Positions 18,547 to 38,463 of a stretch of DNA of 38,463 nt are shown in pieces. The stretch's first letter is position 1; each line of letters begins with the position of its first letter. The position numbers were made by a program, and so were the translations under genes. The notes under the pieces were generated by a model. The model saw only the letters and a list, made by a program, of their open reading frames with translations, was not told where the DNA came from and made no database searches. Source of the DNA: an uncultured Cellvibrionales bacterium (lineage in GTDB: Bacteria > Pseudomonadota > Gammaproteobacteria > Pseudomonadales > GM7GCV1); the NCBI GenBank assembly GCA_913063225.1, contig CAJXYP010000021.1:1-38463 (forward strand), written 5' to 3'.

Positions 18547-21294
18547 ATGAACAATATAAATAAATTTATGGTTGGGTCATTGGGGGCTGCTATTGCGATG
18601 ATGGCTCCAATGGTCGCCATTGCTCAAGATGGTGCCAATACCATCGAAGAAGTGCTGGTAACCGGCCGGAAGCGTGAAGAAAGTTTGACTGATGTGCCGA
18701 TTTCTATCTCGGTATTCAATGCGACTATTCTTGCGGAGCAAGGCATTAATTCAGAAGATGATCTTTTCGCGGCTACGCCCGGACTTGATTACAGTAACTA
18801 CAATGGTAGCCGTCAGGCTAACAATCCGGGTGTTCGTGGCGTTCAATCCAATCTACGTGCATCTAACCAACAGAAAGTAACTTCATTTGTTGATGGCATG
18901 CCTATCCTGGGTAATTCCGGAACATTGCAGTTTTCTGGTATTGATGCAGTCGAAGTTTATCGCGGCCCACAAAGTGCGGCCTTTGGTCGATCTACGTTCG
19001 CCGGTGCGATTAACTACGTTACTGCGGATGCCCCAGAAGAATTTGAAGGCAAGTTTCAAGCAGAGCTTTCAGAACACGGTCGTGAGCATTTCGGAATCCT
19101 ATTAGCTGGGCCATTGACGGACTCTTTAGGCTACCGGCTTTCTTATCAGCAAAACGACTGGGAAGGTCCGGATGAGTGGACGGCTACTGATGGCACAAAA
19201 ATGGGTAGTGAAGAAACTGAAGAAGTTCGGTTGAAGCTAAACTTCGAGTTTAGTGACAGGGCCTATGGCGAAATCGCTTTTAGCCGATTAGAAACCTTTG
19301 ACCAAGAAGGCGCGCAGTGGATAGCTCCTAGTGGTACCTGTGGTGCTGGCTCTGGTGTTTGGAGCTTTGCTATGGGCACTAATACCGAATTACCTTCCGG
19401 TGCTTGGGATTGTGATTTGGATATCCCCGGCGGAAGTGTTGCTCGTAACCATGATGTTTTGGGACAGTTCACTGATGTATATAACGCAAACGTCGCGTCA
19501 TATGAGGGCTCATTCATGGGCGGCTTTGCCGCGCTTGATACTGATCTGAACGGTTCTCTGTCTGTAGATGAGTACCTGGCTCAGGTATTAGCCAATGGCA
19601 CTACCTATCAGCAAGCCTTGGAAGCCCAGTCTTTTTCACCTGGTAACGAAAACACTAAGGATCGCGTACAGGCTGAACTTAACTTTGAAATTGGTGATGG
19701 CCTATTGCAGTTTATGGGTATGCATACCGACGATAGTTCATACCGCTGGAATCAGAACGGAAGCAACGATACGCATGCAGTTTTCGTTACTATGGGTATG
19801 AATGTTGCTCTCAACGGCAATGTTATGAATATGCTGGTACCTGTTGAAATTACAGAGGACTACCTTGAGGTTCGCTGGATTTCTTCTGAAGACGAGCGAT
19901 TGCGCTACACCCTAAGTGCTTCTAATTATGAGTACGAACTGCAGCAGCAGGTATATAACAACGGCGGTGCCTTGGCTTATGGTCAAATTATTGAAGCTCC
20001 GACGCCTGCGGGCCATCCGAATTTTGGGCAACCTGCTTTTGCGGCCACTGGCATCACCATCTCTGAAGTAGCCAAAAATATTGGCGCGTCCTTCGGTTTG
20101 CAATATGATCTGACTGCCCGCACTACGCTTTCCTTAGAAGCTCGTTATCAAATTGATGAGGTTTGCGGTATTGATGCAAACGGCGCAAATGTTGAGTTTT
20201 GCCAAGAAACTAAAGCCTTCTTGCCTCGTCTTTCTTTCAATACACAGCTTACCGACAGCTCTAGCATCTATGGCCAGATCTCTATCGGTAACAATCCCGC
20301 TGGCGTAAATATTGCCCATCAAGATCCAGGCAATGTCGAATCTCTGTTAGTTGCCAGCGGTCAAATCGCTGTTCCAAATTTAGCTAATGACGGCATTAGC
20401 GTTCCGCTACATGCGGGCACTGTCTATGATGGTACCGGCGGTAACTTCGGTACGGTTGATTATGATGCAAGTACTTTTCCAGAGTTTGAAGAAGAAACGC
20501 TGACCAACTTTGAAATTGGTACTAAGGGTAGCTTTGCGGATCGTCGTGGTGCTTATACCGCTGCCGTGTACTTTATGATCTACGAAGACATTATCGGTGC
20601 CGAGAACTTAGATTGGGACGACGATACTGTCGGTGGTTGGAATGAAGATGGCTGGAGTGACTTCACTGGCGAACGAACCTGGATCAATCAGGGTGATGGT
20701 GAAATGTACGGTATCGAGTTGACCGCTGATTATGCGCTAGACGATATATGGACAGTGGGTGGTTATGTAACCATGGGCTCTGCCAAATACACCGATTACT
20801 GCTCTATCCAAGCACCTAATTACCGCACTGGACCAGGTGGCGGGGCTCCTACGCTTCTGGACATACTTCGTCCGGGTACAGATGATGTAACTACGGCTTG
20901 TGCCACGGCAGATGGAAACTGGATACCTAAGCAGACTCCATTTACCGCGAGCTTTAACGTTAGTGCTACGCTGCCGAACGATTTGTTTGGCATGAGAACT
21001 AGTGTTCGGGCTGATATTCGCCACAAGGGTTCATACTTTGAAGATCAGTTGAACTTGCTTGAGCGTGAAGCGGTAACTCTGGTAAACATTTCAGCGAATA
21101 TGCGCAATGACAACTTGAGCCTGCGTTTCTACATTGACAATGTGACTGATAATCAAGCGCCGAGCCGAGTGGCCTTTGGTAACTATTACACCAATAATGC
21201 GAATCCAGCTGCGCGCACTACTCAGGCTGGTTCTTTCAATATTGTTCCGTCACGGCCACGTGAAATGGGCTTCACTGTTGGATATGATTTTTAA
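18547..21294 (+). CDS. TonB-dependent receptor 1, with EF-hand-like loop
   Basis: This 915-residue outer-membrane receptor imports a substrate using TonB energy. It has a signal peptide ending MVAIA-QDG, a TonB box and plug start IEEVLVTGRKREESLTDVP (about 33-51), the plug motifs PGVRGVQSN and VEVYRGPQSAAFGRSTFAGA, and a 22-strand barrel ending REMGFTVGYDF with the terminal Phe. Residues 331-342 (DTDLNGSLSVDE) form a perfect 12-residue EF-hand loop, Asp1, Asp3, Asn5, Gly6, Leu8, Glu12, in an insertion absent from receptors 2 and 3. AGGGGGG at 18532-18538 is a strong ribosome site 8 bases from the ATG and may pair with the CCC before it. The substrate is unknown. A terminator follows. Confidence 0.95.
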   Translation: MNNINKFMVGSLGAAIAMMAPMVAIAQDGANTIEEVLVTGRKREESLTDVPISISVFNATILAEQGINSEDDLFAATPGLDYSNYNGSRQANNPGVRGVQSNLRASNQQKVTSFVDGMPILGNSGTLQFSGIDAVEVYRGPQSAAFGRSTFAGAINYVTADAPEEFEGKFQAELSEHGREHFGILLAGPLTDSLGYRLSYQQNDWEGPDEWTATDGTKMGSEETEEVRLKLNFEFSDRAYGEIAFSRLETFDQEGAQWIAPSGTCGAGSGVWSFAMGTNTELPSGAWDCDLDIPGGSVARNHDVLGQFTDVYNANVASYEGSFMGGFAALDTDLNGSLSVDEYLAQVLANGTTYQQALEAQSFSPGNENTKDRVQAELNFEIGDGLLQFMGMHTDDSSYRWNQNGSNDTHAVFVTMGMNVALNGNVMNMLVPVEITEDYLEVRWISSEDERLRYTLSASNYEYELQQQVYNNGGALAYGQIIEAPTPAGHPNFGQPAFAATGITISEVAKNIGASFGLQYDLTARTTLSLEARYQIDEVCGIDANGANVEFCQETKAFLPRLSFNTQLTDSSSIYGQISIGNNPAGVNIAHQDPGNVESLLVASGQIAVPNLANDGISVPLHAGTVYDGTGGNFGTVDYDASTFPEFEEETLTNFEIGTKGSFADRRGAYTAAVYFMIYEDIIGAENLDWDDDTVGGWNEDGWSDFTGERTWINQGDGEMYGIELTADYALDDIWTVGGYVTMGSAKYTDYCSIQAPNYRTGPGGGAPTLLDILRPGTDDVTTACATADGNWIPKQTPFTASFNVSATLPNDLFGMRTSVRADIRHKGSYFEDQLNLLEREAVTLVNISANMRNDNLSLRFYIDNVTDNQAPSRVAFGNYYTNNANPAARTTQAGSFNIVPSRPREMGFTVGYDF

Positions 21295-21320
21295 TAAATA
21301 AAAATACATAGACCATTTAA

Positions 21321-21347
21321 ATGCCCGGTTCTGCCGGGCATTTTTTT
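21321..21347 (+). terminator. rho-independent terminator of TonB receptor 1
   Basis: ATGCCCGG (21321-21328) pairs with CCGGGCAT (21334-21341) around TTCTG, followed by six T. It lies 26 bases after the receptor stop, so the receptor is probably transcribed apart from the following genes. Confidence 0.9.
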
Positions 21348-21458
21348 GTCGAGTGTCCTGAAAATTAAATTGATATTTGTACAGATAAGTGGGATGGAGC
21401 GGCCATTAAAGTTATTATGGTGCGCACGCAAACTAAGTAGATTCACCTCGGCAAATAA

Positions 21459-24400
21459 GTGAACCAATCTAGAGTCAGTTCTCCAAATTTTCTTCTATTC
21501 GGTATTGCTGGATGTTTCCTGCTGTCCGGCTTTGCAGCTTTGCTCTATCAGATGGCTTGGATGCGGCAGTTCTCTACCGTATTTGGCACTTCTGAAATTG
21601 CGGTAGCCACAGTGCTTGCTGCGTACATGGGTGGATTAGCCTTGGGAGCCGCGATATCCGGAAAACTGGTCGAGCTTATTCGAAAGCCGGTATTTTTCTA
21701 CGGAATCCTCGAAGCGGCTATAGCCGCATCTGCACTATTTGTGCCGGTAGCTCTTTCAATAGCTGCCTGGTTATATGGTTCTGTTCTCGGCGGACAAGAG
21801 TCTCTGCCCAATGCAGAGGGCCTTGGACAACCCTTATTCTATTTCTTTGTGGCCTTTGCCGTATTGGTTATTCCAACGGCCTGCATGGGCGCAACACTTC
21901 CCGTACTAACGCGCTATGTGGTTACCCGGGACGATCAAATTAGCGGTCGGGTAGGTGGTTTATACGCGATAAATACTTTGGGCGCTGTTGGAGGTGCACT
22001 AATTGCGGGATTTGTTCTGCTACCCAAGCTGGGCTTGCAGGGCACTATCTGGTGTGGCGTTGCCATCAATCTATTGGTATTTGTTCTGGCGGTTTTGGTC
22101 GATAAGTTATCTTCCAATGATTTAGCCACGGCAGAAAACGAAGCATTAGCGGCCAGCCAAGAGCTTTCTGAGATTGCAGAGCAAGCGCCTAGTATGAGCA
22201 ACGCCTGGCTAATTTTGCCGATAATGACGCTTTCAGGTGTATGCACCTTCGTATATGAGGTGCTTTGGACCAGATTGATATCGCATATATTGGGCGGCAG
22301 CGTTGCAGCCTTTGCCATTATGCTTGGTAGTTTTCTAACCGGTATTGCTATCGGCAGTATTATTGCCAGCAGGTTAGCCAAAACCCGAAGCCAAGCCGCT
22401 ACTGCATTTGTGGTGAGTCAGCTTGGCATAGCGGTAACTTCCATCTTGATTTACTACTCGTTAAATCAATACGTAACTGCGGGTATTGAATATCAATCCA
22501 AGGTAATTCTGGCTTTCTTGGTGCTTATGCCAGCCACGCTATTTATTGGAGCGACATTTCCCTTAGCGGTGCGGGTCTATGCTTCTGGCGTAGGTTCTGC
22601 GGCTCGCTCTTCTGCCCGAGTTTATGCCTGGAATACGCTGGGTGCGATTGCCGGCGCGGCGATTGCCGGATTCTTCTTGGTGCCTCTGCTGAAGTATGAA
22701 GGCGCGATTCGCGCGATGGTCTTGCTCAATACCCTGCTAGCGATATTGGTGGCGGTTACTTTAGTTTCCAACCGTCGGCTACCCATTTTGATATCGGCGC
22801 TTTTGTTTCTGTCGATTGCCTTTGCGTACCACCCGCGACTTCCAGAAAATGTACTACGTTTTTCACCAATTGACTCGGTCGCAAAAGGTGAGATTCTTTT
22901 TTATGATGTGGGTCGCAGCTCTACAGTACTTTTGTATCAGGATGAGGGTTCTTTTGTCCTGCGCAACAACGGATTGCCAGAGGCAGGTGCACTGCCATTA
23001 GGCGCCCCGAATGCACTAGCCAATCAGCGCTTACTTGGGGCAATGCCCGTTTTGGCGAGGCCCGATATTAAATCGGCGCTTATCGTTGGATTGGGCGCTG
23101 GCAGTGCAGTCACCGGTGTGCCACCAACGGTAGAAGAAATAGATGTAATCGAGCTAGAGCCCAAGGTGATTGAAGCAAATCGTCTTATTACCGATAGACG
23201 CAAGTACCAACCGCTTCAAGATCCTAGAGTCTCCCTGGTTATCAATGACGCGCGAAGCGCCTTAGCGCTAACTTCCAAAACATATGACATGGTGGTTTCT
23301 CAACCGTCCCATCCATGGAGCGCCGGAGCCTCGCATTTGTATACACGTGAGTATATGCAAATGGTGTCTGATCATTTGAACGACGACGGCGTCTATCTTC
23401 AATGGATAAATAGTCAATTTGTTGACGAAGCTTTGTTAAAAAGCTTGTGCGCGACCATATTGGATGTATTCCCCAATGTGCGAATCTATCAATGGTCTCC
23501 GCAAGTTTTGTTCTTTCTGGCTTCTGATGCACCCATGGATATTGAGCGTCAGATATTGGAAACGGGCAGGCCCTTCACGGACGCTCCGTTGTTCTATTTG
23601 GAGTTAGGTGTAGCTGCTGTCGAGGATTCCATAGCAGCACTTATGATGGACGAAGAGGGCGTTCGAGATTTTGCCTTAGGCAGCCGAGTAATAACCGACG
23701 ACTTCAATATGATGGCAATGGAGTCTGCTCGAGTATCTCGAGAGGGGCGTGAGCTTAGTATTGAAAAATTGGCGGATACTTTCCGACCTTGGATCCCGGC
23801 CTTGAATCCCAATAGCTGGGTTCACCAAGAGCTCGGCAACGACTTGGTGTTTACGCGAATTGCTGAAAAGTATGCGGCCTTAATCACCCGAGAATATTCC
23901 TCTGAATTGGTTCTGACGTTGGGTGAAGCCCGCAACGCCAACTCACTGCTATTGGCTAGTACGTTGCTCAGGTCTCAGGGTGAAATTGAAAACGCAGAGG
24001 CAGCCTTGGCTGCGGCAGCTATCGCCATGCCAGGTAGTAATTATGCCAAATATGCCGTGGTAGAACCCTGGCTCCGTTTTATAGGCTTGGAAGATGCTCA
24101 GGAGCAGGTGCCCGCAGGAGTCCTGCAGACTGTTGAGACCATGACAGGTGTCAGCCGCGTGGTTGTAGATGCCGCAATGGCCCTTACGCGGCGCGACATT
24201 CAGATGGTAGCCGATCTAGACGCTCAGCTTAGTTCTGCGGGTACGGCCGATCCCTGGTTTGCGGAAGCGGTAAAGCTGAGAGTTGATTGGCGAAACGCGG
24301 TAACCAATCCGGGGCTCAAAGAGGAGTTCGCCGATCAGGCATGGCAGATACTAGATCTTGCTATGGCAAACAAAAATGACCACGAGTTCTTTGCTATGAG

Positions 24401-24683
24401 AATAGTTTCCGCAGCAGAGGCTGGGCGCGTAAACGAAGTTATGGAAAGTACGCGTGCTTACCTGAATGTTGTTGAGTTTCAGCTTTTGGGAGTAGAAGAG
24501 GGGCATGCATCTCCTGGTTCCTTTGAGCTAGGGCTGAAGCTGGGCCAAATTAATGCCATTTCACGTTTGGTAGCCGAGCAAGATGAGAGCGAACAATATA
24601 GTCCTTCTACAAAGACGGAAATTCAAGCAGGGCTCGCTGCTCTTTTGGATAGGTTTCAGCAGTTGCCGCTAAGCGCGCAGTAG
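21459..24683 (+). CDS. fused transporter-like / spermidine synthase-like membrane protein 1
   Basis: This 1074-residue inner-membrane protein starts at GTG 21459. Residues 10-460 hold about 14 helices in two related halves: SGFAALLYQMAWMRQ and GLYAINTLGAVGGALIAGF in the first recur as SGVCTFVYEVLWTRL and RVYAWNTLGAIAGAAIAGF in the second. Residues about 475-700 form a spermidine-synthase-like Rossmann domain: ALIVGLGAGSAVTG is the nucleotide loop near 540, IDVIELEPKVIEAN the acidic strand end, and VVSQPSHPW near 611 replaces the Asp-containing catalytic DSTDP motif of true spermidine synthases. Residues 750-1074 are Ala-rich helices, perhaps TPR-like. The missing Asp argues against aminopropyl transfer. 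The product and substrate are unknown. A paralog follows. Confidence 0.85.
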   Translation: MNQSRVSSPNFLLFGIAGCFLLSGFAALLYQMAWMRQFSTVFGTSEIAVATVLAAYMGGLALGAAISGKLVELIRKPVFFYGILEAAIAASALFVPVALSIAAWLYGSVLGGQESLPNAEGLGQPLFYFFVAFAVLVIPTACMGATLPVLTRYVVTRDDQISGRVGGLYAINTLGAVGGALIAGFVLLPKLGLQGTIWCGVAINLLVFVLAVLVDKLSSNDLATAENEALAASQELSEIAEQAPSMSNAWLILPIMTLSGVCTFVYEVLWTRLISHILGGSVAAFAIMLGSFLTGIAIGSIIASRLAKTRSQAATAFVVSQLGIAVTSILIYYSLNQYVTAGIEYQSKVILAFLVLMPATLFIGATFPLAVRVYASGVGSAARSSARVYAWNTLGAIAGAAIAGFFLVPLLKYEGAIRAMVLLNTLLAILVAVTLVSNRRLPILISALLFLSIAFAYHPRLPENVLRFSPIDSVAKGEILFYDVGRSSTVLLYQDEGSFVLRNNGLPEAGALPLGAPNALANQRLLGAMPVLARPDIKSALIVGLGAGSAVTGVPPTVEEIDVIELEPKVIEANRLITDRRKYQPLQDPRVSLVINDARSALALTSKTYDMVVSQPSHPWSAGASHLYTREYMQMVSDHLNDDGVYLQWINSQFVDEALLKSLCATILDVFPNVRIYQWSPQVLFFLASDAPMDIERQILETGRPFTDAPLFYLELGVAAVEDSIAALMMDEEGVRDFALGSRVITDDFNMMAMESARVSREGRELSIEKLADTFRPWIPALNPNSWVHQELGNDLVFTRIAEKYAALITREYSSELVLTLGEARNANSLLLASTLLRSQGEIENAEAALAAAAIAMPGSNYAKYAVVEPWLRFIGLEDAQEQVPAGVLQTVETMTGVSRVVVDAAMALTRRDIQMVADLDAQLSSAGTADPWFAEAVKLRVDWRNAVTNPGLKEEFADQAWQILDLAMANKNDHEFFAMRIVSAAEAGRVNEVMESTRAYLNVVEFQLLGVEEGHASPGSFELGLKLGQINAISRLVAEQDESEQYSPSTKTEIQAGLAALLDRFQQLPLSAQ

Positions 24684-24774
24684 CTCAAAATCCCAGCTCA
24701 GCTTTTAAAGTGAATGTTCAAAGCGAAAACTAGAACCAATTTGAAGACCAACCAATCAAAACAATAGAGATATC

Positions 24775-27700
24775 GTGCAAAACAAGAATCCACAGTTAAT
24801 CTACCTCGGCGTATGTGCCTGCTTCCTACTATCTGGATTTGCCGCACTGCTTTATCAAACCGCTTGGATGCGTCAATTCTCTACGGTATTTGGAACATCG
24901 GAACTTGCGGTTGCTACCGTGCTATCAGCCTACATGGGTGGTCTGGCTTTTGGCGCTGCACTTGCTGGCAAGTTTATCGGGCGGGTACGACGCCCCGTTC
25001 TAACTTACGGAATCCTCGAGGCTGCTATAGCTGGTTCTGCCCTTTTGGTGCCGGTTCTGCTGAGCCTAGCGGGCCTAGCCTATGCTGCGGTCTTAGGCGG
25101 ACAGCCTGAGCCACCTGACGCCAGTGGTATGGGCCAATCGCTATTTTACTTTGTTGTGGCCTTTATCGTGCTGGCTATTCCAACGGCGTGTATGGGCGCA
25201 ACACTGCCGCTCTTAACTCGTTACGCGGTTACCTCTGAGAGCCAAATTGGTTCTCGCGTGGGCGCGCTATATGCGATAAATACCGCTGGCGCTGTGCTCG
25301 GTACCATTACCGCTGCCTTTTTGCTTTTGCCTGCAATGGGTTTGTTCGGCACCGTTTGCTTTGGTGCAGCGGTCAATCTACTGGTGTTTTTAATAGCGGT
25401 AGTGATTGCTAAGAGCTCTTCGGAAATGATGCCTCAGGAAGATGATGAAATATCCGGGCAAGCATCACCCGTAGCTGAAGTAAGCGGGACAGAAGTGCTT
25501 TCCATTTGGAGGCGACCCAGTTTTATTCTGCCCATCATGCTGCTCTCTGGCACCACAAGCTTTGTATACGAAGTACTCTGGACCCGATTGCTCTCACATA
25601 TTCTCGGCGGCAGTGTTGCAGCCTTTGCGACAATGCTGGCTAGCTTTTTATCCGGTATCGCCATAGGTAGCGCTATTGCCTCTCGCTTTGCGGTTACTTC
25701 AGAGCGTTCCGTACAGATTTTTATTGGCGTGCAAGCGGCAATTGCTTTCACTTCTATGGGAATTTACCAGTGGCTACATTTGGCAATACCTAGTGACGAT
25801 AGCGCAACCGCAAATTTAGGCGTTGCTATCGCAGTGCTGCTGCCGGCAACGCTCTTTATCGGTGCTACCTTTCCCTTAGCGGTTCGAATCTTTGCCACAA
25901 GCGCAAACCGTGCTGGTAGTTCATCCGCTCAGGTCTATTCCTGGAATACCGTTGGCGCCATATTTGGTGCCGCATTCGCCGGGTTCTTTCTGATTCCTGC
26001 TTTGAAGTATGAAGGCGCAATCAAAGTCGTGGTATTGACCAATGTCTTTCTAGCTTTTGCCGCGGCGATATTTATTACTAAAGTTCGTCCTTCGATTGCT
26101 GGCGGTATGGCGCTTTTATTCGCTGGATTGGCTATTGGATACAACCCAACTATGCCCGAGGATATCTTACGCACCTCACCCATTGATGAGAGAGCTGAGG
26201 GAGAGATTCTCTATTACGAAGTTGGCCGCTCCTCTACCGTATTTATGACTCGTGATAGCGGAAGTATTGGCCTTAGGAACAACGGTCTACCTGAAGCGGG
26301 GTCGTTGTTTTTAGGTTCTGCACCATCAAAGAATACGCAAGAGGCACTGGCTACGCTTCCCGGATTAATTCGTCCGGATGCAGAGTCGGTCTTAATTGTA
26401 GGCTTTGGCGGCGGCAATGCGATCAATGGAGTACCTCCCACCGTTACAGAAATAGATGTAATTGAATTAGAACCCAGAGTGATAGATGCCAATGCGCTGG
26501 CTGGTGATATTAGATATAAGGATCCACTAAAAGATCCCAGACTGTCCATCTATATCAATGACGCTCGCAGCGCGCTCAGTCTTACCGATAAAACCTACGA
26601 CGCAATTATTTCTCAACCCTCTCATCCCTGGACTGCTGGCGCTTCTCACCTATATACCCGTGAATATATTTCTCTCGCTGCGGACCATTTGACTGAAGAC
26701 GGAGTGTTTTTGCAGTGGATGGCAGCTCAGTTTGTGACTGAGTCCTTATTACGCAGCCTCTGCGCAACTATGTTGGACGTCTTTGAATACGTGAAGGTGT
26801 ACCAACTATTCTCAGGTGTTTTGTTTTTTGTCGGTTCGCAGGAGCCAATGGATACCGAGCTAGAAATGGCAAGGACTGGTAGGCCAGTTATCGATTCGCC
26901 GGCCTTTTATTATCAGAGCGGGATCGCCTCGACCGAAGACTTGCTGGCAGCGTTACTGCTAGATACTCAGGGTGCTCGAGAGTTTTCTCAAGGTGCTGAG
27001 CTGCTCACTGATAATTTTAATCGCATGGCTACAGAATCGGCTAGTGCAACTGCTTCAGGAGATACTCTGGGCTTGATTGCCCTAAGTAAGTTGGTGCAGC
27101 CCTACGTTCCGGTACTTGATCCAGCAAGCTGGGTGCATCAGGACCTAGGGTTTATAAATTTTGCTTACATTTCTGAAAAGTACGAAGAATACAAGTTTCG
27201 CCCCTACGGAATCGCGCTGGCAAATACGCTCGCTAGCCTGGGTAACCCTCAATCGGAAATATTGACCGGGTTGGGCCTTGAGGCACAGGGCGACAGGGAT
27301 GAATCACAGCGAGTGCTGGCTCAGGCAGCAGCTAGCGCCCCACAAGGTGAATTAAGTAATCAGGCTATTTACGCGACAATAGAACCCTGGTTGATCCCAC
27401 TGATGCTAGGTCAGGCACCTGCAGATATTGCAGCGCTCGCCGGGCGTTTAACTGGCTCGGCGGCGGCAGTAGTAAAAGGCAGGGCCGCAGTAAGTAGACG
27501 TGAATGGCAGCAGCTAATAGACCTTGATCCGATATTTGCCCAATCTCGCCCGACGGACCAATGGTTTGTTGAATCAACAAAGTTGATGGTTGAGTGGCGT
27601 AATAATGTTGCGAGCCTTGAACGCAATACTGATCTTGCCGAGCAGGCTTGGCAGATAATTGATCTCGCGATTGCGGTCGCTCCCGTGCCGGACTTATATT

Positions 27701-27978: not shown

Positions 27979-28022
27979 AAATCTAGATTGAGCGGCCTTT
28001 CGTTCCATAAGGGCCCGTTTCA

Positions 28023-28083
28023 AATTGTGTAATTGCAACATTGCACCAAGATTACTTAGAAATTGCACCAAAGCTACACAATT
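28023..28083. promoter_or_regulatory. nested repeats, possible operator of TonB receptor 2
   Basis: AATTGTGTA (28023-28031) and TACACAATT (28075-28083) are a 9-bp inverted repeat. Between them ATTGCACCAAG (28040-28050) recurs as ATTGCACCAAAG (28062-28073), 22 bases or two helical turns apart, with a shorter ATTGCAAC at 28032-28039. Direct repeats on one DNA face are typical of activator sites. No regulator gene is visible nearby. Confidence 0.5.
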
Positions 28084-28167
28084 CGAATTCCTTACAAGAG
28101 TAGGGTGCTCCCACGCATCTATATATGGATGCGTCTGAGGCTGTCAGGGGGCAGTTTGGGTGGCAGA
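28077..28167 (+). promoter_or_regulatory. conserved upstream block with hairpin, copy 1
   Basis: The block begins CACAATT and ends GGCAGA, 180 bases before the receptor 2 ATG. It contains the perfect hairpin ACGCATC/GATGCGT (28113-28119 with 28128-28134) running into TCTGAGGCTG (28134-28143) and a G-rich GGGGGCAGTTTGGGTGG. The same order, with a different hairpin sequence, precedes receptor 3 at exactly the same distance. It may be a promoter plus leader element or an RNA structure. Confidence 0.55.
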
Positions 28168-28346
28168 GCATCGCCATTCCCAACGATTAAGTAATTTGTG
28201 CGCTCTATGCAGGTTGCAATCGAATAGCTACATCCCCTGCCATTTCTCTGGATAGGGCCGTCACGGTACTATTTTCTGTTTGTGCTGTTGGCAATTTGAA
28301 TTTGGCAATGTGCCCGGCTATTCAATATTAGTTATCGGGGAAATAC

Positions 28347-31028: not shown

Positions 31029-31055
31029 TTCAAAGCCCTAATAGACATTAAAGAG

Positions 31056-31080
31056 CCCGGGCATTGCCCGGGTTTTTTTT
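31056..31080 (+). terminator. rho-independent terminator of TonB receptor 2
   Basis: CCCGGGC (31056-31062) and GCCCGGG (31066-31072) pair around ATT, followed by eight T. The hairpin is the same as the one after receptor 3, part of the duplicated unit. Confidence 0.93.
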
Positions 31081-31267
31081 GCGTTGGATTTGAGGATGAA
31101 AGTTTCAGCAAGACCTGGAATGCGGCTTACTCGAACCGAACTAGACTCTGAATATTTTTCGATTAATATCCCCAGTTCAAATAAATATCGATAGCTATCA
31201 TTATTGAGGTCGATCGCATACTAAAAGCAATCTACACAGTTTATGCACACATGCCTTACAAAAAGTT

Positions 31268-31357
31268 CACAATTGCGTAATTAAAGGGTAAGGTACCACC
31301 TGTGGGGGCTTTATTGCCACATCTGAGGCTGGTATGGGGACGGTTTTGGAGGTCAGA
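31268..31357 (+). promoter_or_regulatory. conserved upstream block with hairpin, copy 2
   Basis: CACAATT opens the block and GGTCAGA closes it, 180 bases before the receptor 3 ATG, the same distance as in copy 1. TGTGG (31301-31305) pairs with CCACA (31317-31321) directly before TCTGAGGCTG (31322-31331), followed by GGGGACGGTTTTGGAGG. The hairpin stem differs from copy 1 while its flanks match. Confidence 0.55.
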
Positions 31358-31536
31358 TTTCTTAACTTCCTGTGGTCTATTATCTGTGTGATCTATCGCA
31401 GAGATAGACCTATAGCAACACCCATACTTTTTACTCGGAATAACGCCTCTAAAGCGTCAGCGCTAATTATTGCTCGTCAATGTTTAGCAAAGGACAATTT
31501 TAGTAGGTGAATCACTATTTTTACTGGGAAACTTAT

Positions 31537-34221
31537 ATGAAAAATCTATATAAAATAACTGCAGGCTTTTTAGGGGTAACCCTAGGGCTATTTGGCACTG
31601 GACATGCCATAGCGCAGAACGATGGCGATACCTTTTCACTAGAAGAGATTCTAGTTACCGGTCGTAAAAGAGAAGAGAGTTTGACTGATGTACCAGTTTC
31701 TATTTCGGTATGGTCAGGTACTAACTTGGAAGAAGCTGGTATCAGCAGCCAACAAGAATTGTTTGACGCTACTCCTGGCTTGAGCTTCGACACCGCTACT
31801 GGTGACCGTAACTCTGCTCAGCCTGCGGTTCGTGGTGTTCAATCTAACGAAATCGCAACTACACAGCAGAAAGTAAATTCATTCATTGATGGATTGCCAA
31901 TGTTGGGTCAAGTTGGTTCTTTGAGCTTCCAAGGCATTGAGCAGATTGAAGTTTATCGTGGTCCTCAGAGTGCGGCCTTTGGTCGTTCTACTTTCGCAGG
32001 TGCGATTAACTATGTAACCGCTGACGCGACTGAAGAATTCGAAGGCAAAATCAGCGGAAAAGTCTCTGACTTGGGTGGTAACGAATTTGGAGTTGCTATT
32101 TCTGGTCCGCTAACGGACAACTTCGGTTATCGCTTATCTTATATTCATGACGAACTGACTGGTCCGGATGAATGGACAGCGACTGATGGAGTTGAAACGG
32201 GTACTCAGGATACGGATACCTTTTCAGCCAAGCTTAATTTTGAATTCAACGACAATATGTACGGCGAAGTAATGTATACACGCCTTGAGCAGAACGACAC
32301 TGCTACCAATTCATTCGTTTTGGATCCAGAAAATTGCACCGGTGATTCTGGTGTTTTCTTGAACAACATGGGCGCTCGTACTCAGACGTTCAGCGGTGAG
32401 TGGGATTGTGACGTTTCAGATGGCGTTGTTCGTCGAAACCACGACGTTTTGAGTTCGTTTGTAGATGCCTACGACCCTGCTAATTTCGGCGGAATGACAT
32501 TAGATGCATATTTGTCTCAAACAGATATGGGCGGCGTTACATACGAGCAAATTATGCTTGGTCAAAGTGTTGAGCCCATGGCTTACACTGAACGTGATCG
32601 CTGGCAGGGTGAGTTCAATGTCGAATTTGGCGACAGCCTTTTAACCTTCCTAGGCATGAAAAACGAAGAGTTTTATCAGCGCTGGAACGATTCAGATAGC
32701 AATGACACCATTGCAGTAATCGACTCTATGTCTGGCATGCTGGGCATGAATGTAGGCAGCATGTCTGACCCTACGGACATCGAAGAGACTTACTTCGAAG
32801 CGCGTTGGGTATCTCCTGACGATGAACGACTGCGCTATACCCTGAGTGCATCGCACTACGAGTATGACTTTGTGACGAACGTTTACTTCAACTATGGTGC
32901 GCTAGGCTTTGGTCTGGAACTCCCGGATGGTACACCGGTCAATCCACGCAGAAATCTGATTATCGCTGCCTCCACTGCGAATGAAGGTGCTTCTTTTGGT
33001 GTGGACTACGACCTTACTGATCGCACGACGCTTTCCGTTGAAGGTCGATATCAGACTGATGAAAACTGTGGTTCTGATGCGGTTAACAATATAAGCGCTT
33101 GTACTACTACTAAGTCATTTGCTCCCCGCGTTTCAATCAATACGGCGCTAACTGACGATAGCAGTGTGTACTTCCAATACTCTCAGGGAACTAACCCAGC
33201 CGGTATTAACATTGCCTACGCTAATCCAGGTTTTGTTGAAGCCCTACAGATTGCCAATGGCAGTATTGCGGTTCCAGGTATAGCGCCAGACGGCGATGTT
33301 CCTTCAAATGTCGGTACTATCTATGACGGTACTGACGGGATTCACTTCCCAACAGTTTCATACGATGCATCTATCTATGAAGCATACGACGAAGAAGTAC
33401 TGACCAACTGGGAAATTGGCTACAAAGGTTCTTTCCTTGATCGTCGCGGAAGTATCACCGCTGCACTCTACTTTATGGATTGGAAAGATCTCGTATCCTC
33501 CGGTAACCTCGGTTGGAATGACGACAGTTCTATCGCTGGCGGTGACGCATATGACGGCTGGGATATAGATGGCTACTGGGATTCCTTTGATGGTACTCGG
33601 ACCTTCTTTAACACGGGTGATGCAGAGTTTTACGGCTTAGAGCTAGCATCCTCTTTCGCAGTAGATGAGATCTGGACTATTGGCGGTAATGTCTCGATAA
33701 CTAGCGCACGTTATACGGATTACTGCTCAGTAAATGCGGGTAACTACACTAGTATCGATACACCTCCTTTTACGCCAGTGTTTGATATTCTGACTCCAGC
33801 TGCTGATGGAGTAGAAGCTGATTGTGGTCTAGTCGATGGAAATAACATTCCGCGGACTTCTAAAGTTAAGGGCTCGATGGATGTAACTGCTTCATTGCCA
33901 AATGAAATATTTGGTATGCGAACTTCTATCCGTGCTGACTTGCGTCATACAGGCAAGAGTTTCCAAGACGACTTCAACCAAATTGAAGTTGCTGCGGTAA
34001 CTACGATGAATCTTTCAGCTAATATGCGCAACGACGAAGGCCTTTCAGTTCGTCTATTCGTTAATAACCTGACTGATGAGGATTACCCTCTAAATATCAG
34101 TGCTACTAACTTCTATACGCAGAATGCAAACTCTGCCATTCCTCCTTCACAGGAAGCGTCTTGGTCAGTAGTTCCACGTCGTCCACGTGAAATTGGATTG
34201 TCTATTGGTTACGAATTTTAA
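31537..34221 (+). CDS. TonB-dependent receptor 3
   Basis: An 894-residue outer-membrane receptor from the ATG at 31537 (MKNLYKITAGFLGVTLGLFG); an upstream TTG/GTG frame start would add ten residues before the signal peptide and is rejected. The signal peptide ends GHAIA-QN, the TonB box is LEEILVTGRKREES and the barrel ends REIGLSIGYEF. Long stretches match receptor 2 exactly, for example the strand FYNTGDAEFYG/FFNTGDAEFYG region and DVPVSISVWSG, so the two arose by recent tandem duplication. Differences cluster in predicted extracellular loops, as expected if they now take up different but related ligands. It is terminated separately and followed by the amidohydrolase gene. Confidence 0.95.
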   Translation: MKNLYKITAGFLGVTLGLFGTGHAIAQNDGDTFSLEEILVTGRKREESLTDVPVSISVWSGTNLEEAGISSQQELFDATPGLSFDTATGDRNSAQPAVRGVQSNEIATTQQKVNSFIDGLPMLGQVGSLSFQGIEQIEVYRGPQSAAFGRSTFAGAINYVTADATEEFEGKISGKVSDLGGNEFGVAISGPLTDNFGYRLSYIHDELTGPDEWTATDGVETGTQDTDTFSAKLNFEFNDNMYGEVMYTRLEQNDTATNSFVLDPENCTGDSGVFLNNMGARTQTFSGEWDCDVSDGVVRRNHDVLSSFVDAYDPANFGGMTLDAYLSQTDMGGVTYEQIMLGQSVEPMAYTERDRWQGEFNVEFGDSLLTFLGMKNEEFYQRWNDSDSNDTIAVIDSMSGMLGMNVGSMSDPTDIEETYFEARWVSPDDERLRYTLSASHYEYDFVTNVYFNYGALGFGLELPDGTPVNPRRNLIIAASTANEGASFGVDYDLTDRTTLSVEGRYQTDENCGSDAVNNISACTTTKSFAPRVSINTALTDDSSVYFQYSQGTNPAGINIAYANPGFVEALQIANGSIAVPGIAPDGDVPSNVGTIYDGTDGIHFPTVSYDASIYEAYDEEVLTNWEIGYKGSFLDRRGSITAALYFMDWKDLVSSGNLGWNDDSSIAGGDAYDGWDIDGYWDSFDGTRTFFNTGDAEFYGLELASSFAVDEIWTIGGNVSITSARYTDYCSVNAGNYTSIDTPPFTPVFDILTPAADGVEADCGLVDGNNIPRTSKVKGSMDVTASLPNEIFGMRTSIRADLRHTGKSFQDDFNQIEVAAVTTMNLSANMRNDEGLSVRLFVNNLTDEDYPLNISATNFYTQNANSAIPPSQEASWSVVPRRPREIGLSIGYEF

Positions 34222-34240
34222 TTCGAAGCTTTAAGCAGAT

Positions 34241-34272
34241 AAAAAGCCCGGGCATTGCCCGGGCTTTTTTTT
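34241..34272 (+). terminator. rho-independent terminator of TonB receptor 3
   Basis: AAAAAGCCCGGGC (34241-34253) pairs with GCCCGGGCTTTTT (34257-34269) around ATT, and the T-run reaches 34272. The A-run makes it work on both strands in principle. Core and loop are identical to the receptor 2 terminator. Confidence 0.94.
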
Positions 34273-34397
34273 GCCTAACATTCGCTCAAATAGCAACAAA
34301 CTATCTCCGGATTTAAAGCCAGCACGAGTATGTTGTAGACTGACGTAATCGGTAACTACGCCAGTTGATACTTTTATGGTTAAAAAGAGAAAGATAT

Positions 34398-35519
34398 ATG
34401 TTTTCCACTAGACGCAATTTCTTAAAAGCTTCTGCCGCTGCTTCTCTCACAGCTCCTGCAATCGCAATGCAGGGCTGTGTTGCAGCTTCTCAATCATCCC
34501 CTACACCGTTCAAAAAAATTGCTATTGAAGAAGCCTTTGTTACCCAGGATATCGCCGACGAGTGGAATAAAATAATTGCCGCGGGATCGCCAGGCGAACC
34601 CGGCTTTCGAAAAATGGGTGAGTCTATTCTTGCGGACAATCCCGGCACTCAAATAATTCATCAACGGTTGATTGATTTGGGCGCGGGGCGCATAGCGAAT
34701 ATGGATGCTAGCGGCATTGATATGCAGCTCATATCAATCACTTCTCCTGGTGTTCAGGTACTAGAAGCTGAATTGGCCAGAGATCTGGCGCAGGACGCCA
34801 ACAACCACCTTTCCGCGGCCGTAAAAGCCCATCCAGATCGTTTTGCTGGCATGACTGCCATCGCACCTCAGCTGCCAGAAGCTGCCGCTCTTGAACTAGA
34901 GCGAAGTGTGACTACTCTCGGATTAAAAGGCGCAATAATTAATTCGCATACCAATGGCGAGTATCTGGATGATGCAAAATATTGGCCGATTTTTGAGGCG
35001 GCTAACGCGTTAAAAGCGCCTATCTATTTGCATCCCCGCTCGCCGTCAGAGGGCATGATCGAACCTTACTTGGATTACGGATTGTATTTTGCCGGCTGGG
35101 GTTTTGCGGTGGAAACCAGCTTGCATGCTATGCGGCTAATAATGAGTGGAGTCTTTGATCAGTTTCCGGACCTGAAAATTATTCTAGGCCATATGGGCGA
35201 GGGTATTCCCTTCTATTTGCAGCGCATCGATAACCGCTACTTATTGCAAGTAAAGATTGGCGCAGTAAGAGAAATGCCCAGACTGCCCAGTGAATACTTT
35301 AAAGACCACTTTGTAATAACTACTTCTGGAGTAGCGCAGCAATCATCGTTGCAGTTGGCTTACGAAGAGCTAGGCGCTGACCGCATTCTATTTGCGGCCG
35401 ACTACCCCTATGAGTCGGTAGAAGAGGCCGTGCACTTTATGGATACCGCCGACTTAAATGTTGTCGACAAGCACAAAATCTACCACGGCAATGCCGAGCG
35501 TATGTTTGACCTAGGCTGA
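34398..35519 (+). CDS. Tat-exported amidohydrolase, decarboxylase-like
   Basis: From the ATG at 34398 (AGAGAAAG upstream) the protein has 373 residues. It opens STRRNFLKASAAASL, a twin-arginine signal, with Cys after AIAMQG as a possible but imperfect lipobox. The mature part belongs to amidohydrolase family 2 (ACMSD-like) and resembles 2,3-dihydroxybenzoate and gamma-resorcylate decarboxylases: IAIEEAF (metal Glu), DASGIDMQLISITSPGVQ, YLHPRSP (metal His), ILGHMGEG (catalytic His), TTSGV and ILFAADYPYE (metal Asp). All expected ligands are present, so a metal-dependent decarboxylase or hydrolase acting on an aromatic acid is likely. These enzymes are normally cytoplasmic; export is unusual. 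It ends 9 bases into the convergent cytochrome gene. Confidence 0.88.
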   Translation: MFSTRRNFLKASAAASLTAPAIAMQGCVAASQSSPTPFKKIAIEEAFVTQDIADEWNKIIAAGSPGEPGFRKMGESILADNPGTQIIHQRLIDLGAGRIANMDASGIDMQLISITSPGVQVLEAELARDLAQDANNHLSAAVKAHPDRFAGMTAIAPQLPEAAALELERSVTTLGLKGAIINSHTNGEYLDDAKYWPIFEAANALKAPIYLHPRSPSEGMIEPYLDYGLYFAGWGFAVETSLHAMRLIMSGVFDQFPDLKIILGHMGEGIPFYLQRIDNRYLLQVKIGAVREMPRLPSEYFKDHFVITTSGVAQQSSLQLAYEELGADRILFAADYPYESVEEAVHFMDTADLNVVDKHKIYHGNAERMFDLG

Positions 35520-36098
35520 TTTGTTGGGAAGCATGCGTTTCAGCACATCGTCTTTTTCGACAAAGTGGTGATATAGCCCTGCTCCTGCATGCACTGCGAT
35601 GACCATCCAAAACAAAAATGGGCCAGCGATGCGGTAATGAAAGAAATCAAAGGGTACTTCCCATTGCTCATTAGTCACTCCGAGTAGATCCATAACCCAG
35701 ATGCCGATAGCGGTGTACTGGAACCCCGGTATGTCAAAGAATACATAGCTTACGCCACTGCTGTTGCCAAAATAGCCGGAAACTGGCATGGCGATCAATA
35801 GCGCGTATAGGCAGAAGTGACTGGCATGAGAAGCTTTGATTTGCCAATTGGGCATGCTTTCAGGAAGTTTGGGTATGAGGTTTTTTGCACGCCACCAAAT
35901 TCGCAGTGCAAAAAATAAAAGTACGCTAAAGCCAATACCTTTGTGCAATCGAATAACCGGACTTCGCTGCGGCCCTTCGTGGTGAATTACGTATTCAAGA
36001 TACAAGACCAATAGATAGGCAGCTAGAACCAAAATTGCGGTTAGCCAGTGCAACCATTTAGCAACGCTGCCGTAGGTTATTTCCGTATTCCGAATCAT
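35511..36098 (-). CDS. cytochrome b561 family protein B
   Basis: A 195-residue, four-helix inner-membrane dihaem b561 of the YceJ/CybB type, moving electrons between the quinone pool and a periplasmic partner. I start it at the ATG at 36098 (MIRNTEITYGSVAKWLHWLT), preceded by AGGGGTG; an upstream frame start at 36185 adds 29 poor residues. Haem-ligand histidines appear in KWLHWLTA, RLHKGIGF, KASHASHF and AVHAGAGLYHHF. It closely resembles cytochrome A in this operon, sharing TYGSVAKWLHWLTA and the tail KDDVL-MLPNK. It is the last gene of the esterase-b561-Rossmann-b561 operon and lies 37 bases after the preceding gene. Confidence 0.92.
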   Translation of the reverse strand: MIRNTEITYGSVAKWLHWLTAILVLAAYLLVLYLEYVIHHEGPQRSPVIRLHKGIGFSVLLFFALRIWWRAKNLIPKLPESMPNWQIKASHASHFCLYALLIAMPVSGYFGNSSGVSYVFFDIPGFQYTAIGIWVMDLLGVTNEQWEVPFDFFHYRIAGPFLFWMVIAVHAGAGLYHHFVEKDDVLKRMLPNKSA

Positions 36099-36135
36099 TT
36101 CACCCCTAATACTGTCGTTTTTGGCTTTTTTATAA

Positions 36136-36849
36136 TTATTGTGTTCTGTCGCTTTGCGGATAATTCCACTCAAAATAATCGCCATTTAAGCGCGCGTTAC
36201 CTCGCAGCAAATACAGCCCTTCAACAATATGTGCATAGCGCACTGGGCCAAAATCCAGTGTTTCAAAACCAAGCTGATGGCAAATTTCCGCCACCACCGC
36301 TTTGGCGTCTGCGTCATTGCCGACCAATGGAATGGTAAGTGGGTGGTCCACAATAGTTGGATCAATCATGGTGTCTGAACTAATACTGCTAAACGCTTTG
36401 ACGACCATCGACCTAGGTGCAAGTGCCTGCAGGCGCTCAGCATTAGAAATAAAACTTGGGTAATCTACTCGGCCATCTTCGGCGACTATTCGCGGATTAA
36501 TAGGGTCAATAATGATTTTTCCGGATAGATCACCAAGGCTTATCAAAACGGCCTCGGCTACATTCCAGGGCACTGCCATCAACAGAATGTCTGGCATCTG
36601 TGCTGCCTCTGGTTGCGAGGTCGCAGAGGAATCACCAGATGTGGCTGCCACCAGCGCTTGCACATCATCTCGTTCCGGTGTGCGAGAGCCATAGATAACG
36701 GTATGGCCGATTTCTGCAAAGCGAGGGCCCAGAGCGGCTCCCACTGAACCAGTTCCGATAACCGCAATAGTCTCTGCAAAAAGTGCAGTGGGTAAAAATT
36801 GCATAAAGCTGGTTAACAGAATCGCTGATAAAAGTTCTCTAATGCTCAT
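36136..36849 (-). CDS. NADP-binding Rossmann protein (F420-dependent oxidoreductase-like) with signal peptide
   Basis: The 237-residue protein matches the NADPH:F420 oxidoreductase-like family (COG2085). The fold opens ETIAVIGTGSVGAALGPRFA with the GxGxxG motif, then YGSRTPER for the NADP phosphate, LLMAVPWNVAEAVL, IIIDPINPR, VVKAFSSISS and DFGPVRYAHIVEGLY. Before the Rossmann strand lies MSIRELLSAILLTSFMQFLP-TALFA, a typical Sec signal peptide, which cytoplasmic family members lack. So the protein is probably periplasmic, where free NADP is scarce; a reused fold or bound cofactor is possible. AAGGAG gives a strong ribosome site. The start overlaps the end of cytochrome b561 A by 11 bases, pointing to tight coupling. 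Confidence 0.85.
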   Translation of the reverse strand: MSIRELLSAILLTSFMQFLPTALFAETIAVIGTGSVGAALGPRFAEIGHTVIYGSRTPERDDVQALVAATSGDSSATSQPEAAQMPDILLMAVPWNVAEAVLISLGDLSGKIIIDPINPRIVAEDGRVDYPSFISNAERLQALAPRSMVVKAFSSISSDTMIDPTIVDHPLTIPLVGNDADAKAVVAEICHQLGFETLDFGPVRYAHIVEGLYLLRGNARLNGDYFEWNYPQSDRTQ

Positions 36850-37471
36850 TAATTTCTCCTTTTGAATTAAGTTGTGCGTCGCTAGATGCCTTTTTATTGG
36901 GTAGCATATTAGTCAACACGTCATCTTTGTGAATAAAGTGGTGATATAGGGCGGCGCCAGCATGTATCCCAATGAGTACCCATAAAATATAGGGGCCGAC
37001 TAAGTGATAGTGAAAATAATCAAAGGGAGCTTCCCACTGCTCCCAAGTTACATTCAATAGGTCCATAACCCAGATTCCGGGCTCGGTACGTCGAAAACCT
37101 TCTATGCTGAATATGCCGTAATTAACGCCACCGCCATTGCCTAGGTATCCAGATATCGGCATGGCCAACATAAAGAAATACAGTAAAAAGTGCATTGCGT
37201 GAGAGGCCTTCAACTGCCACCAGGGCATGCTGCCGGGAAGCTTCGGTTTAGGGTTGGTTGCTCGCCAATACAGCCTCATGAAGAAGAACAGCACCACGCT
37301 AAAGCCAACCGCTTTGTGCAGGGTTTGGGTGGTCCTCCAAGGCTCAGATCGAATCTCTAGGAAAAAGTGCAGGTAATAGACCAGTAGGTAGGCCAGCAAG
37401 AACGCAAGCGCGGTTAGCCAATGCAGCCATTTGGCTACACTCCCATAGGTTAATTCCGTGTTCTTCAACAT
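36839..37471 (-). CDS. cytochrome b561 family protein A
   Basis: A 210-residue four-helix b561 with histidines in KWLHWLTA, TLHKAVGF, KASHAMHF and GIHAGAALYHHF as probable haem ligands. It is a close paralog of the other b561 in this operon; both keep GSVAKWLHWLTA, PISGY/PVSGY and the C-terminal KDDVL tail. Its C-terminal SSDAQLNSKGEINEH extension is unique. It would pass electrons between membrane quinones and a periplasmic enzyme, here perhaps the signal-peptide-bearing Rossmann protein encoded next, whose start it overlaps. It lies 11 bases after the esterase gene and is translated from the ATG at 37471. Confidence 0.92.
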   Translation of the reverse strand: MLKNTELTYGSVAKWLHWLTALAFLLAYLLVYYLHFFLEIRSEPWRTTQTLHKAVGFSVVLFFFMRLYWRATNPKPKLPGSMPWWQLKASHAMHFLLYFFMLAMPISGYLGNGGGVNYGIFSIEGFRRTEPGIWVMDLLNVTWEQWEAPFDYFHYHLVGPYILWVLIGIHAGAALYHHFIHKDDVLTNMLPNKKASSDAQLNSKGEINEH

Positions 37472-37482
37472 CGAACTGCTCT

Positions 37483-38425
37483 CTATTCAGCTGTGTCCAT
37501 AACAAAATCGAGAATCGCGTCACTGAGCATGCGATCTGAAGTGCCTATGGAAATATTTGGCGAGTAGTGATTGTGACCAGCCAGCTGCCGAACGCGTGGC
37601 ACCGCGCCGTGCTCAGATGCCAATTCGTTTGCGAGTCTCAAGGTAGCCGTTGCGGTTGCACCCAAGTCGTATTGAGAACTGGTCAACATCACCGGAATGC
37701 TGGAGCGGCTTATATTGCCAAACACCTGTTTGTTTTCCAGGTCGCGCTGACTATTACCGAAATAGGCTTCGGTAGCTGCATCGTAGTTGGCGCTAATGAG
37801 GACCACGCCAGCCACTGTCGGAAACTCTCCGACAAGCACTTCTGGTCTAAAGGCATAGTTGGCCACATGACCACCACCGGCAGATTTACCAACAACAAAT
37901 ATGTTTTCCGGGTCTCCGCCGAACTCGCTAATATTGTCGCTTACCCATTGAACCGCAGCTGCCACATCATTTGCACCATCAGGCCAGTTGGCTTCTGGAG
38001 CTAAGCGATAGGTCGCGCTAACGCCAACCAGACCAATACTGGCGTAATATTCGCCAACATTTCGGGAGCCTTCTTTACTGCCTCTGGTATAGCCACCGCC
38101 ATGGAAGAAGATTACTACGGGCGCTAGGTTATCTCCCCGGCGCAGGGTATCGACATGTACATCCAGCTGCTGGCGTTCGTGATCGCCGTAAGCAATATCA
38201 GAGGTTGTCTTAACTTCGTCGGCGCCATAGCTTCTAGGCACGTCAACGTAGAGTTCATTTGTTTTCGCCAGCACGCCGTCTGCCATGCTTTCGTAGATGG
38301 AGACGATGCCTTGCTGAACTTCAATAGGCATTCCGCCTCGAAGCGCGTTGGCGGTGCCGCGAACATGTTCGTCATCTCGCCCCCAGCGAAAATCCTGAAG
38401 TTCGTCGCCGCGTTCGCGACAAGCT
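37483..38425 (-). CDS. HSL-type alpha/beta hydrolase (esterase), 5' end lost at contig end
   Basis: About 313 codons of an alpha/beta hydrolase of the hormone-sensitive-lipase family (esterase family IV) are present. The oxyanion motif is FFHGGGYTRG, the nucleophile elbow is VVGKSAGGGH (catalytic Ser in GKSAG), the acid is likely the Asp of SSQYDLGA and the base the His of LAGHNHYS. LAPEANWPDGANDV is also typical. The enzyme would hydrolyse a short-chain or aromatic ester. The apparent start MCIRDR is translated from sequencing adapter joined at 38426, so the real N-terminus, including any signal peptide, is unknown. It heads the minus-strand operon with the two b561 genes. Confidence 0.92.
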
Positions 38426-38463
38426 CTGTCTCTTATACACATCTGACGCTGCCGACGAATAGA
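38426..38463. other. Illumina Nextera adapter contamination at contig end
   Basis: CTGTCTCTTATACACATCT (38426-38444) is the Tn5 mosaic end used in Nextera libraries, and GACGCTGCCGACGA (38445-38458) completes the read-1 adapter. The last five bases ATAGA match the start of the reverse complement of the common i5 index CTCTCTAT. The piece is not genomic and should be trimmed. Confidence 0.98.

Follow-up and report, generated by a model that had tools for sequence, protein, structure and literature searches.

The window analysed here is the entire contig CAJXYP010000021.1 (C21; 38,463 nucleotides) of the draft genome GCA_913063225.1 of an uncultured Cellvibrionales bacterium (G000, the source genome; 2.26 Mb, 97% complete). 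Between position 18547 and its right end it carries ten genes (Table 1), which encode three TonB-dependent receptors (TBDT1 to TBDT3), two giant proteins combining a major facilitator superfamily (MFS) fold with a spermidine-synthase (SpdSyn) fold (SPD1 and SPD2, called SPD together with their relatives), an amidohydrolase, two cytochromes b561 (B561a and B561b), an exported F420:NADP-oxidoreductase-like Rossmann protein (called FNO) and an esterase. A first-pass annotation made from the sequence alone had named the same families at the same places and had seen no unrelated gene among them; indeed, no further open reading frame (ORF) of at least 100 amino acids lies between the named genes, antisense ORFs within genes aside. 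We give about an even chance to the reading that the stretch comprises two adjoining modules, a receptor-SPD module, in which SPD would be a periplasm-facing transferase dependent on S-adenosylmethionine (SAM), and a minus-strand esterase-b561-Rossmann operon. Of the new points, the receptor-SPD unit and the re-reading of SPD have the best support. Gene content, the recurrence of receptor-SPD pairs, their correlated divergence, residue replacement, predicted topology and the arrangement in a congener (G003) were computed.

Table 1 Features of the window from position 18547 to the right end (positions in nucleotides)
Feature	Position	Strand	Remarks
TBDT1, TonB-dependent receptor, 915 aa	18547..21294	+	Pfam Plug and TonB_dep_Rec; relatives adjoin SPD in the congener and at L107
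Terminator-like hairpin 3' of TBDT1	21319..21343	+	11 pairs, then TTTT
SPD1, MFS fold plus spermidine-synthase fold, helical tail, 1074 aa	21459..24683	+	NF037959 114.7 bits; 51% to SPD2
SPD2, architecture as SPD1, 1067 aa	24775..27978	+	NF037959 113.7 bits; congener ortholog 73%
TBDT2, 893 aa	28347..31028	+	Pfam Plug and barrel; recent duplicate of TBDT3 (82% identity)
GC hairpin 3' of TBDT2, CCCGGGCATTGCCCGGG	31056..31072	.	Palindromic; scan listed the minus strand
TBDT3	31537..34221	+	ORF listed from 31507; homology begins at 31537
Terminator-like hairpin between TBDT3 and amidohydrolase	34241..34270	+	Read by eye
Amidohydro_2 protein, LigW type, Tat-like signal	34398..35519	+	ORF from 34365; start at 34398 is our reading
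B561b, prokaryotic cytochrome b561	35511..36098	-	ORF listed to 36185; homology begins at 36098
FNO, exported F420H2:NADP-oxidoreductase/STEAP-type Rossmann protein	36136..36849	-	Overlaps B561a by 11 nt
B561a, prokaryotic cytochrome b561	36839..37471	-	Pfam; match to E. coli b561 (5oc0)
C-terminal part of exported lectin-esterase (Abhydrolase_3/BD-FAE)	37483..38425	-	N-terminal part is ORF 1-468 of G000:C22
Sequencing-adapter read-through, artefact	38426..38463	.	33 adapter bases and 5 more

Both the Plug and the beta-barrel domain score above the Pfam cut-off in all three receptors. At the right end, the 33 bases from 38426, which we take to be the Nextera adapter, give the esterase ORF a false start (MCIRDR...). 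Thus, the esterase gene is truncated and its apparent start is an artefact: the HSL esterase of the first-pass annotation is real as to family, but the gene is cut at the contig end. The full-length congener ortholog (503 aa) carries a Ricin_B_lectin domain ahead of the esterase domain. The N-terminal part from the source genome was found at the beginning of contig C22, which therefore very probably follows C21. The genes annotated up to 38425 are real, but the locus seems to run on into C22 with EamA, Amidohydro_3, two DUF6152 genes, YceI, a fourth TonB receptor and two metallo-beta-lactamase-fold proteins.

Relatives of SPD were collected by scanning 84,980 species genomes with the patterns F[VIL]YEVLWT and [IV]SQPSHPW, which yielded 266, and the best 80 loci were kept for all counts over SPD loci. 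According to record titles, the close family occurs in Proteobacteria, Planctomycetota, Myxococcota and one member of the Acidobacteriota. Within the order, 19 of 194 genomes encode SPD-like proteins (E below 1e-30). At 19 of the 80 loci, SPD has a receptor no more than 1.5 kb away, on its own strand in 14 cases. Over this distance, receptors number 8.9 per 100 kb, versus 1.0-2.0 at 1.5-10 kb (ratio 5.7, p 1.2e-6). Because many loci are related, the set was also dereplicated, leaving 13 receptors near versus 8 far at 70% (55 loci; rate ratio 6.7, p 2.4e-5) and 10 versus 6 at 60% (45 loci; p 2e-4). Moreover, receptor and SPD distances are correlated over 19 adjacent pairs (Mantel r 0.88, a value that none of 5000 permutations reached), this set being made up of 18 loci and the window, with L138 left out for its fragmentary receptor. 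The two partners look co-inherited. No receptor was present at seven loci of distant MFS/SpdSyn relatives (seven of 16 such genomes; 5.6-19.5 kb each).

When the neighbours within 7 kb of SPD were clustered, receptors (24 loci), sulfatases (20) and DUF6152 proteins (12) ranked first, SPD itself and a 13-locus cluster resembling spurious reading frames over SPD being set aside. A sulfatase is found within 1.5 kb of SPD at 13 of the 80 loci, a signal that weakens upon dereplication (p 0.06 at 70%, 0.04 at 60%). The cultured Pseudomaricurvus alkylphenolicus (L154) combines receptor, SPD and sulfatase genes, and an Amidohydro_2 gene there is transcribed divergently from the receptor gene. In the source genome, a third SPD copy (L019; G000:C16:547-3747) lies near SnoaL-like, DUF6152 and cytochrome c genes. 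The 40 kb read there contained no receptor, the contig ending about 0.5 kb past SPD on the other side. The receptor-SPD pairing points to the handling of receptor-imported matter or to the modification of exported proteins. Our literature searches found no description of it, and among the papers listed no title or abstract links spermidine-synthase fusions to TonB receptors.

SPD1 and SPD2 score well above the cut-off of 40 bits of NF037959 (fused MFS/spermidine synthase), a model of 480 positions set against about 1,070 residues in SPD; no function was found in the literature for such a fusion. A structure model of SPD2 built from 48 sequences (pLDDT 90.8) places an MFS fold at residues 1-438 (Z 27.3-31.6, root mean square deviation 3.4-4.2 among the 50 matches listed by VIA-align, a comparison that covered mainly these residues). 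A spermidine-synthase fold follows at about 477-700 (Foldseek match to human SpdSyn 2o06, TMt 0.74, E 4.5e-9), and the tail is helical and weakly matches TPR (E 3.6e-8 for the whole sequence, although none of the individual stretches passes). The fold matches listed do not include METTL13 or other methyltransferases, which excludes nothing.

An Asp/Glu pair characterises the polyamine site of spermidine synthases. In an alignment of 48 SPDs (46 of the 73 full-length SPDs from the 80 loci and the two of the window) compared with solved synthases, Q614 and H617 occupy the positions of this acid pair in all 48, an invariance that is partly due to selection because SQPSHPW was a scan pattern. E564, E566 and D596, which presumably hold the SAM nucleoside, are likewise invariant (48/48). 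In spermidine synthase, the acid of the GxG(D/E)G motif serves for decarboxylated SAM (PMC10349129). This acid, at a position that no scan pattern covers, is replaced in every one of the 48 SPDs, by G in 39 and by A in 9. As the GxG(D/E)G acid is lost and the polyamine-site acids are replaced, SPD was rejected as an ordinary spermidine synthase and is probably not a spermidine synthase. The "synthase-like" label given to the two giants in the first-pass annotation holds for the fold, but the residues of a polyamine synthase are replaced, and the proteins include an MFS fold and a helical tail as well.

It is also very unlikely that SPD is nevertheless a true polyamine enzyme or transporter and that the receptors feed polyamine uptake. 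The family name speaks for this, as do genes seen by eye within 7 kb of SPD, namely SpeA-like (arginine decarboxylase) and DHS-like (deoxyhypusine-synthase-like) genes at 5 of the 80 loci (L119, L120, L126, L140 and L143) and agmatine-deiminase-like genes at four (L119, L133, L140 and L143). However, the diagnostic acid is missing throughout the alignment, few of the loci are polyamine-linked, and the three of these that entered the alignment (L119, L120 and L126) have the replaced motif too.

As to topology, 13 membrane helices are predicted for SPD, the twelve of the MFS fold and an extra hydrophobic helix at 439-455. With the N-terminus inside, the mean number of lysines plus arginines is 18.9 in cytoplasmic loops versus 4.9 in outer loops, the latter rising to 7.3 with the first 26 residues past helix 13. 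Because of the thirteen helices and the charge bias of the loops, the SpdSyn-fold domain is predicted to lie in the periplasm. Thus, the name "fused MFS/spermidine synthase" probably misleads for the close SPD family, given that the diagnostic acid is absent and the domain seems periplasmic. The most likely identity of SPD is a SAM-dependent transferase that faces the periplasm. If there is such an enzyme, one must ask by what route SAM gets out of the cytoplasm.

The first module would then consist of the TonB receptors, one older receptor and one recently duplicated pair, and the tandem SPD proteins. SPD would sit in the inner membrane, where the MFS-type bundle and the thirteenth helix would take the SpdSyn-fold domain and the helical tail into the periplasm. 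There, it would act as a SAM-dependent transferase of the methyltransferase type rather than as a polyamine synthase, and the MFS part may carry either the receptor ligand or the SAM required by the domain. We infer the methyltransferase activity of SPD, the transport role, the substrates and the electron route.

Several points weigh against the two-module reading, besides the scan-pattern effect, the charged stretch past helix 13 and the SpeA-like and DHS-like neighbours mentioned above. Vertical descent alone could yield correlated receptor and SPD distances, and 61 of the 80 SPD loci are without an adjacent receptor, though some contigs are short. Helix 13 is short, and as neither helix 5 nor helix 11 stands out as a separate hydrophobic peak, the total of 13 depends on the structure model. 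A SAM enzyme in the periplasm would also require that SAM be present outside the cytoplasm. Furthermore, the modules adjoin in the congener too, where SPD2 ends at 12784 and the FNO gene is at 12791, and being neighbours there as well, the two modules may work together.

The nearest precedent for SPD is NHMT (AN4663), a fungal, membrane-anchored, SpdSyn-like methyltransferase of the endoplasmic reticulum that acts on N-terminal histidines of exported proteins (PMC10349129). NHMT has a seven-helix membrane domain and a specific segment at 389-394, the acid of its GxG(D/E)G motif is an isoleucine, and the glutamate E340 is needed for SAM binding (PMC10349129). Both proteins have membrane helices followed by a SpdSyn-like domain with the GxG(D/E)G acid replaced. 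In both, the number of helices is odd and the domain would lie on the exported side, which for NHMT we infer from the residence in the endoplasmic reticulum that the paper reports. NHMT differs in having 7 helices, no such tail and a fungal origin, whereas SPD has 13 predicted helices, a tail, a bacterial origin and a link to TonB receptors. E564 or E566 of SPD, both invariant (48 sequences), may correspond to E340.

By analogy, SPD could be a bacterial N-terminal histidine methyltransferase with an MFS carrier supplying SAM, whose clients would be the greatly expanded DUF6152 proteins that start with His-His after export, perhaps form a copper histidine brace and serve receptors for hydrophobic substrates; we consider this unlikely as a whole. 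DUF6152 matches number 59 in the source genome (57 above the curated cut-off; some are pieces of one gene) and 58 in the congener (56), and there were none in 14 control genomes. No paper was found for the term "DUF6152". Among the 44 DUF6152 ORFs that have the N-terminal domain (for instance L193 3341-5583, L094 and L018; 21 stretches of source and congener, read by eye), 41 show a signal-peptide-like stretch that ends right before His-His, while two of the others lack the N-terminus and one reads A-R-H-S. H29 is invariant in 18 of 18 aligned proteins, a set chosen for His-His. A copper histidine brace requires a mature N-terminal histidine and a second histidine (PMC10952591), and proteins of this kind are the targets of NHMT. 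In the DUF6152 model (pLDDT 84.7; residues 1-3 under 50), an OB-type domain appears to precede a fatty-acid-binding-protein-like barrel, the best match for the barrel having Z 9.7 (110 residues) and the OB match, PriB, Z 9.4 (81 residues).

DUF6152 proteins were not enriched near versus far from SPD (ratio 0.93, p 0.63; 2 near and 16 far after dereplication at 70%, 0 and 6 at 60%), and as there is no such enrichment, DUF6152 was rejected as a close neighbour of SPD. There are 33 DUF6152 hits in 1374 kb of SPD loci versus none in the 38 loci (253 kb) taken from SPD-free genomes of the order, a comparison confounded by phylogeny because these control loci are mostly small, were fetched for other genes and come from other lineages. 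The link between SPD and DUF6152 is a weak hypothesis that comes down to shared genomes.

The congener bears on the single locus for uptake and periplasmic catabolism that the first-pass annotation had proposed, with a comparison of gene order in relatives set beforehand as the check on it. The assembly of G003 is split into 170 contigs, and genes on different contigs may lie at any distance from each other. On G003:C61, the order is cyclase, DUF2272, TBDT1, a second receptor and SPD2, with the end of FNO following 6 bases on; on G003:C34, three DUF6152 genes and Amidohydro_3 share one strand and are followed by esterase, B561a and FNO on the opposite strand. Thus, the core of the locus is conserved in two species. 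In contrast, the corresponding place lacks TBDT2/TBDT3, SPD1, the amidohydrolase and B561b. The amidohydrolase ortholog (80%) is on G003:C3 with genes on both sides, among them one DUF6152, and no receptor, SPD or b561 was found on these 10.1 kb. The TBDT2/3 ortholog (75%) sits at one end of G003:C2, where only one flank is visible. Parts of the set are thus unlinked in the congener, and with SPD1 and the second b561 absent from its receptor locus, a single pathway made from the whole set finds no support. What does recur within the genus (G003, G000:C4 and G000:C22) is the arrangement of receptors beside exported enzymes to which the annotation had drawn attention.

Other genomes were compared as well. 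L107, from a third genome, has the order receptor, SPD1, SPD2, followed by molybdopterin oxidoreductase, cytochrome c, DUF6152 and sulfatase genes, and the set of Rossmann protein, b561 and lectin-esterase was not found in the 22 kb read there. Across the 80 SPD loci of other genomes, some of them on short contigs, models of the window enzymes matched at two loci for the amidohydrolase, two for the esterase, one for FNO and none for b561. The sole FNO-bearing locus (L106) is apparently the congener itself. On G003:C140 (L197 7759-15843), two receptors differ from those of the window in that each comes after two genes judged by eye to be sigma-factor-like and FecR-like.

The minus-strand genes are tightly packed, with 11 nt between esterase and B561a and the overlap given in Table 1. 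One operon over the whole stretch was rejected in view of the hairpins 3' of the three receptor genes, although the scan listed 26 such sites versus 20.0 expected and single hairpins prove little. In the two-module reading, the second module would run from the lectin-esterase through b561, the exported NADP-type Rossmann protein and the other b561, and would continue on C22 with Amidohydro_3 and DUF6152 proteins. It may hydrolyse esters in the periplasm and exchange electrons with the quinone pool. The LcoA-BcnA system, a b561/lipocalin defence against peroxidation, offers a parallel insofar as the wider locus of the window also has b561 and a YceI-like gene, but this gene lies about 5.6 kb into C22 and does not adjoin b561 (PMC9113575).

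The FNO protein matches F420H2:NADP oxidoreductase (5e-23), STEAP3 (1e-16) and also STEAP4. A signal-peptide-like N-terminus and a GSR motif, which we take to bind the NADP phosphate, were seen by eye in six of nine FNO-type proteins including that of the window, and three (in G530, G435:C76 and G485) begin directly at the Rossmann motif. Matches below 1e-24 occur in 5 of 369 genomes of the class, the source included; within the order, 40 of 194 genomes have a match below 1e-12, and only the source, the congener and G007 have one below 1e-20. In STEAP proteins, the FNO-type domain is cytoplasmic and fused to the STEAP membrane domain. The window resembles this system in the sequence of the Rossmann domain and in having a b-type cytochrome alongside. 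However, FNO and b561 are separate genes, the b561 family is not the STEAP membrane domain, and there is a putative signal peptide instead of a cytoplasmic domain. A general FNO-b561 pair was rejected, as b561 is beside FNO at none of seven loci outside the genus in the fetched DNA.

These likenesses would fit a locus for iron acquisition, in which the receptors import ferric siderophores and the STEAP-like FNO and b561 reduce the iron as a split, periplasm-facing analogue of STEAP. The tight operon with its two b561 genes agrees with such a role, and a siderophore-receptor model is the best-scoring one for the receptors, yet it stays under its cut-off in all three. No siderophore permease or synthesis gene turned up, although no search was aimed at them, and b561 is missing from the seven related FNO loci outside the genus in the DNA fetched. 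To our knowledge, there is no periplasmic source of NADPH, which counts against this explanation as well, and we regard it as rather improbable.

The amidohydrolase between the modules may be a lineage-specific neighbour of both. Its best PDB match is LigW, a 5-carboxyvanillate decarboxylase (1.3e-80, 298 residues aligned), and the metal and active-site motifs of the two line up; the roles of the active-site residues are presumably as in LigW. It differs from LigW by a Tat-type signal (TAT_signal model 19.4 bits, cut-off 16.7), by which it is probably exported, and it is not beside the lig-type genes of the genome, which are on another contig. The decarboxylase-like call of the first-pass annotation was apt as to family, but in the congener the gene is unlinked from receptors.

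With this enzyme, the whole stretch could serve one pathway for uptake and periplasmic catabolism of an aromatic acid ester, in which the receptors import the substrate for cleavage by the esterase, the LigW-type enzyme, exported via Tat, carries out a decarboxylation and electrons pass via b561. Apart from the LigW match, LigB and ring-cleavage-type genes in G000:C5 and in G004 favour this (names besides LigB assigned by eye). The aromatic-acid substrate guessed at first is in keeping with LigB in the genome but is weakened by the congener, which gave no LigB match in a genome search and yet retains the amidohydrolase, on another contig than its receptor locus. Moreover, a terminator-like hairpin separates TBDT3 from the amidohydrolase, and the enzymes are rare or absent among the 80 SPD loci, as counted above. 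The likelihood of this pathway is accordingly small in our view. On G000:C5 (L232 5326-11714), LigB, identified by Pfam, has LigC, LigA, LigI, LigJ and LigK-like neighbours, which by eye read as a protocatechuate 4,5-cleavage-type operon, and a TonB receptor lies about 3 kb beyond it.

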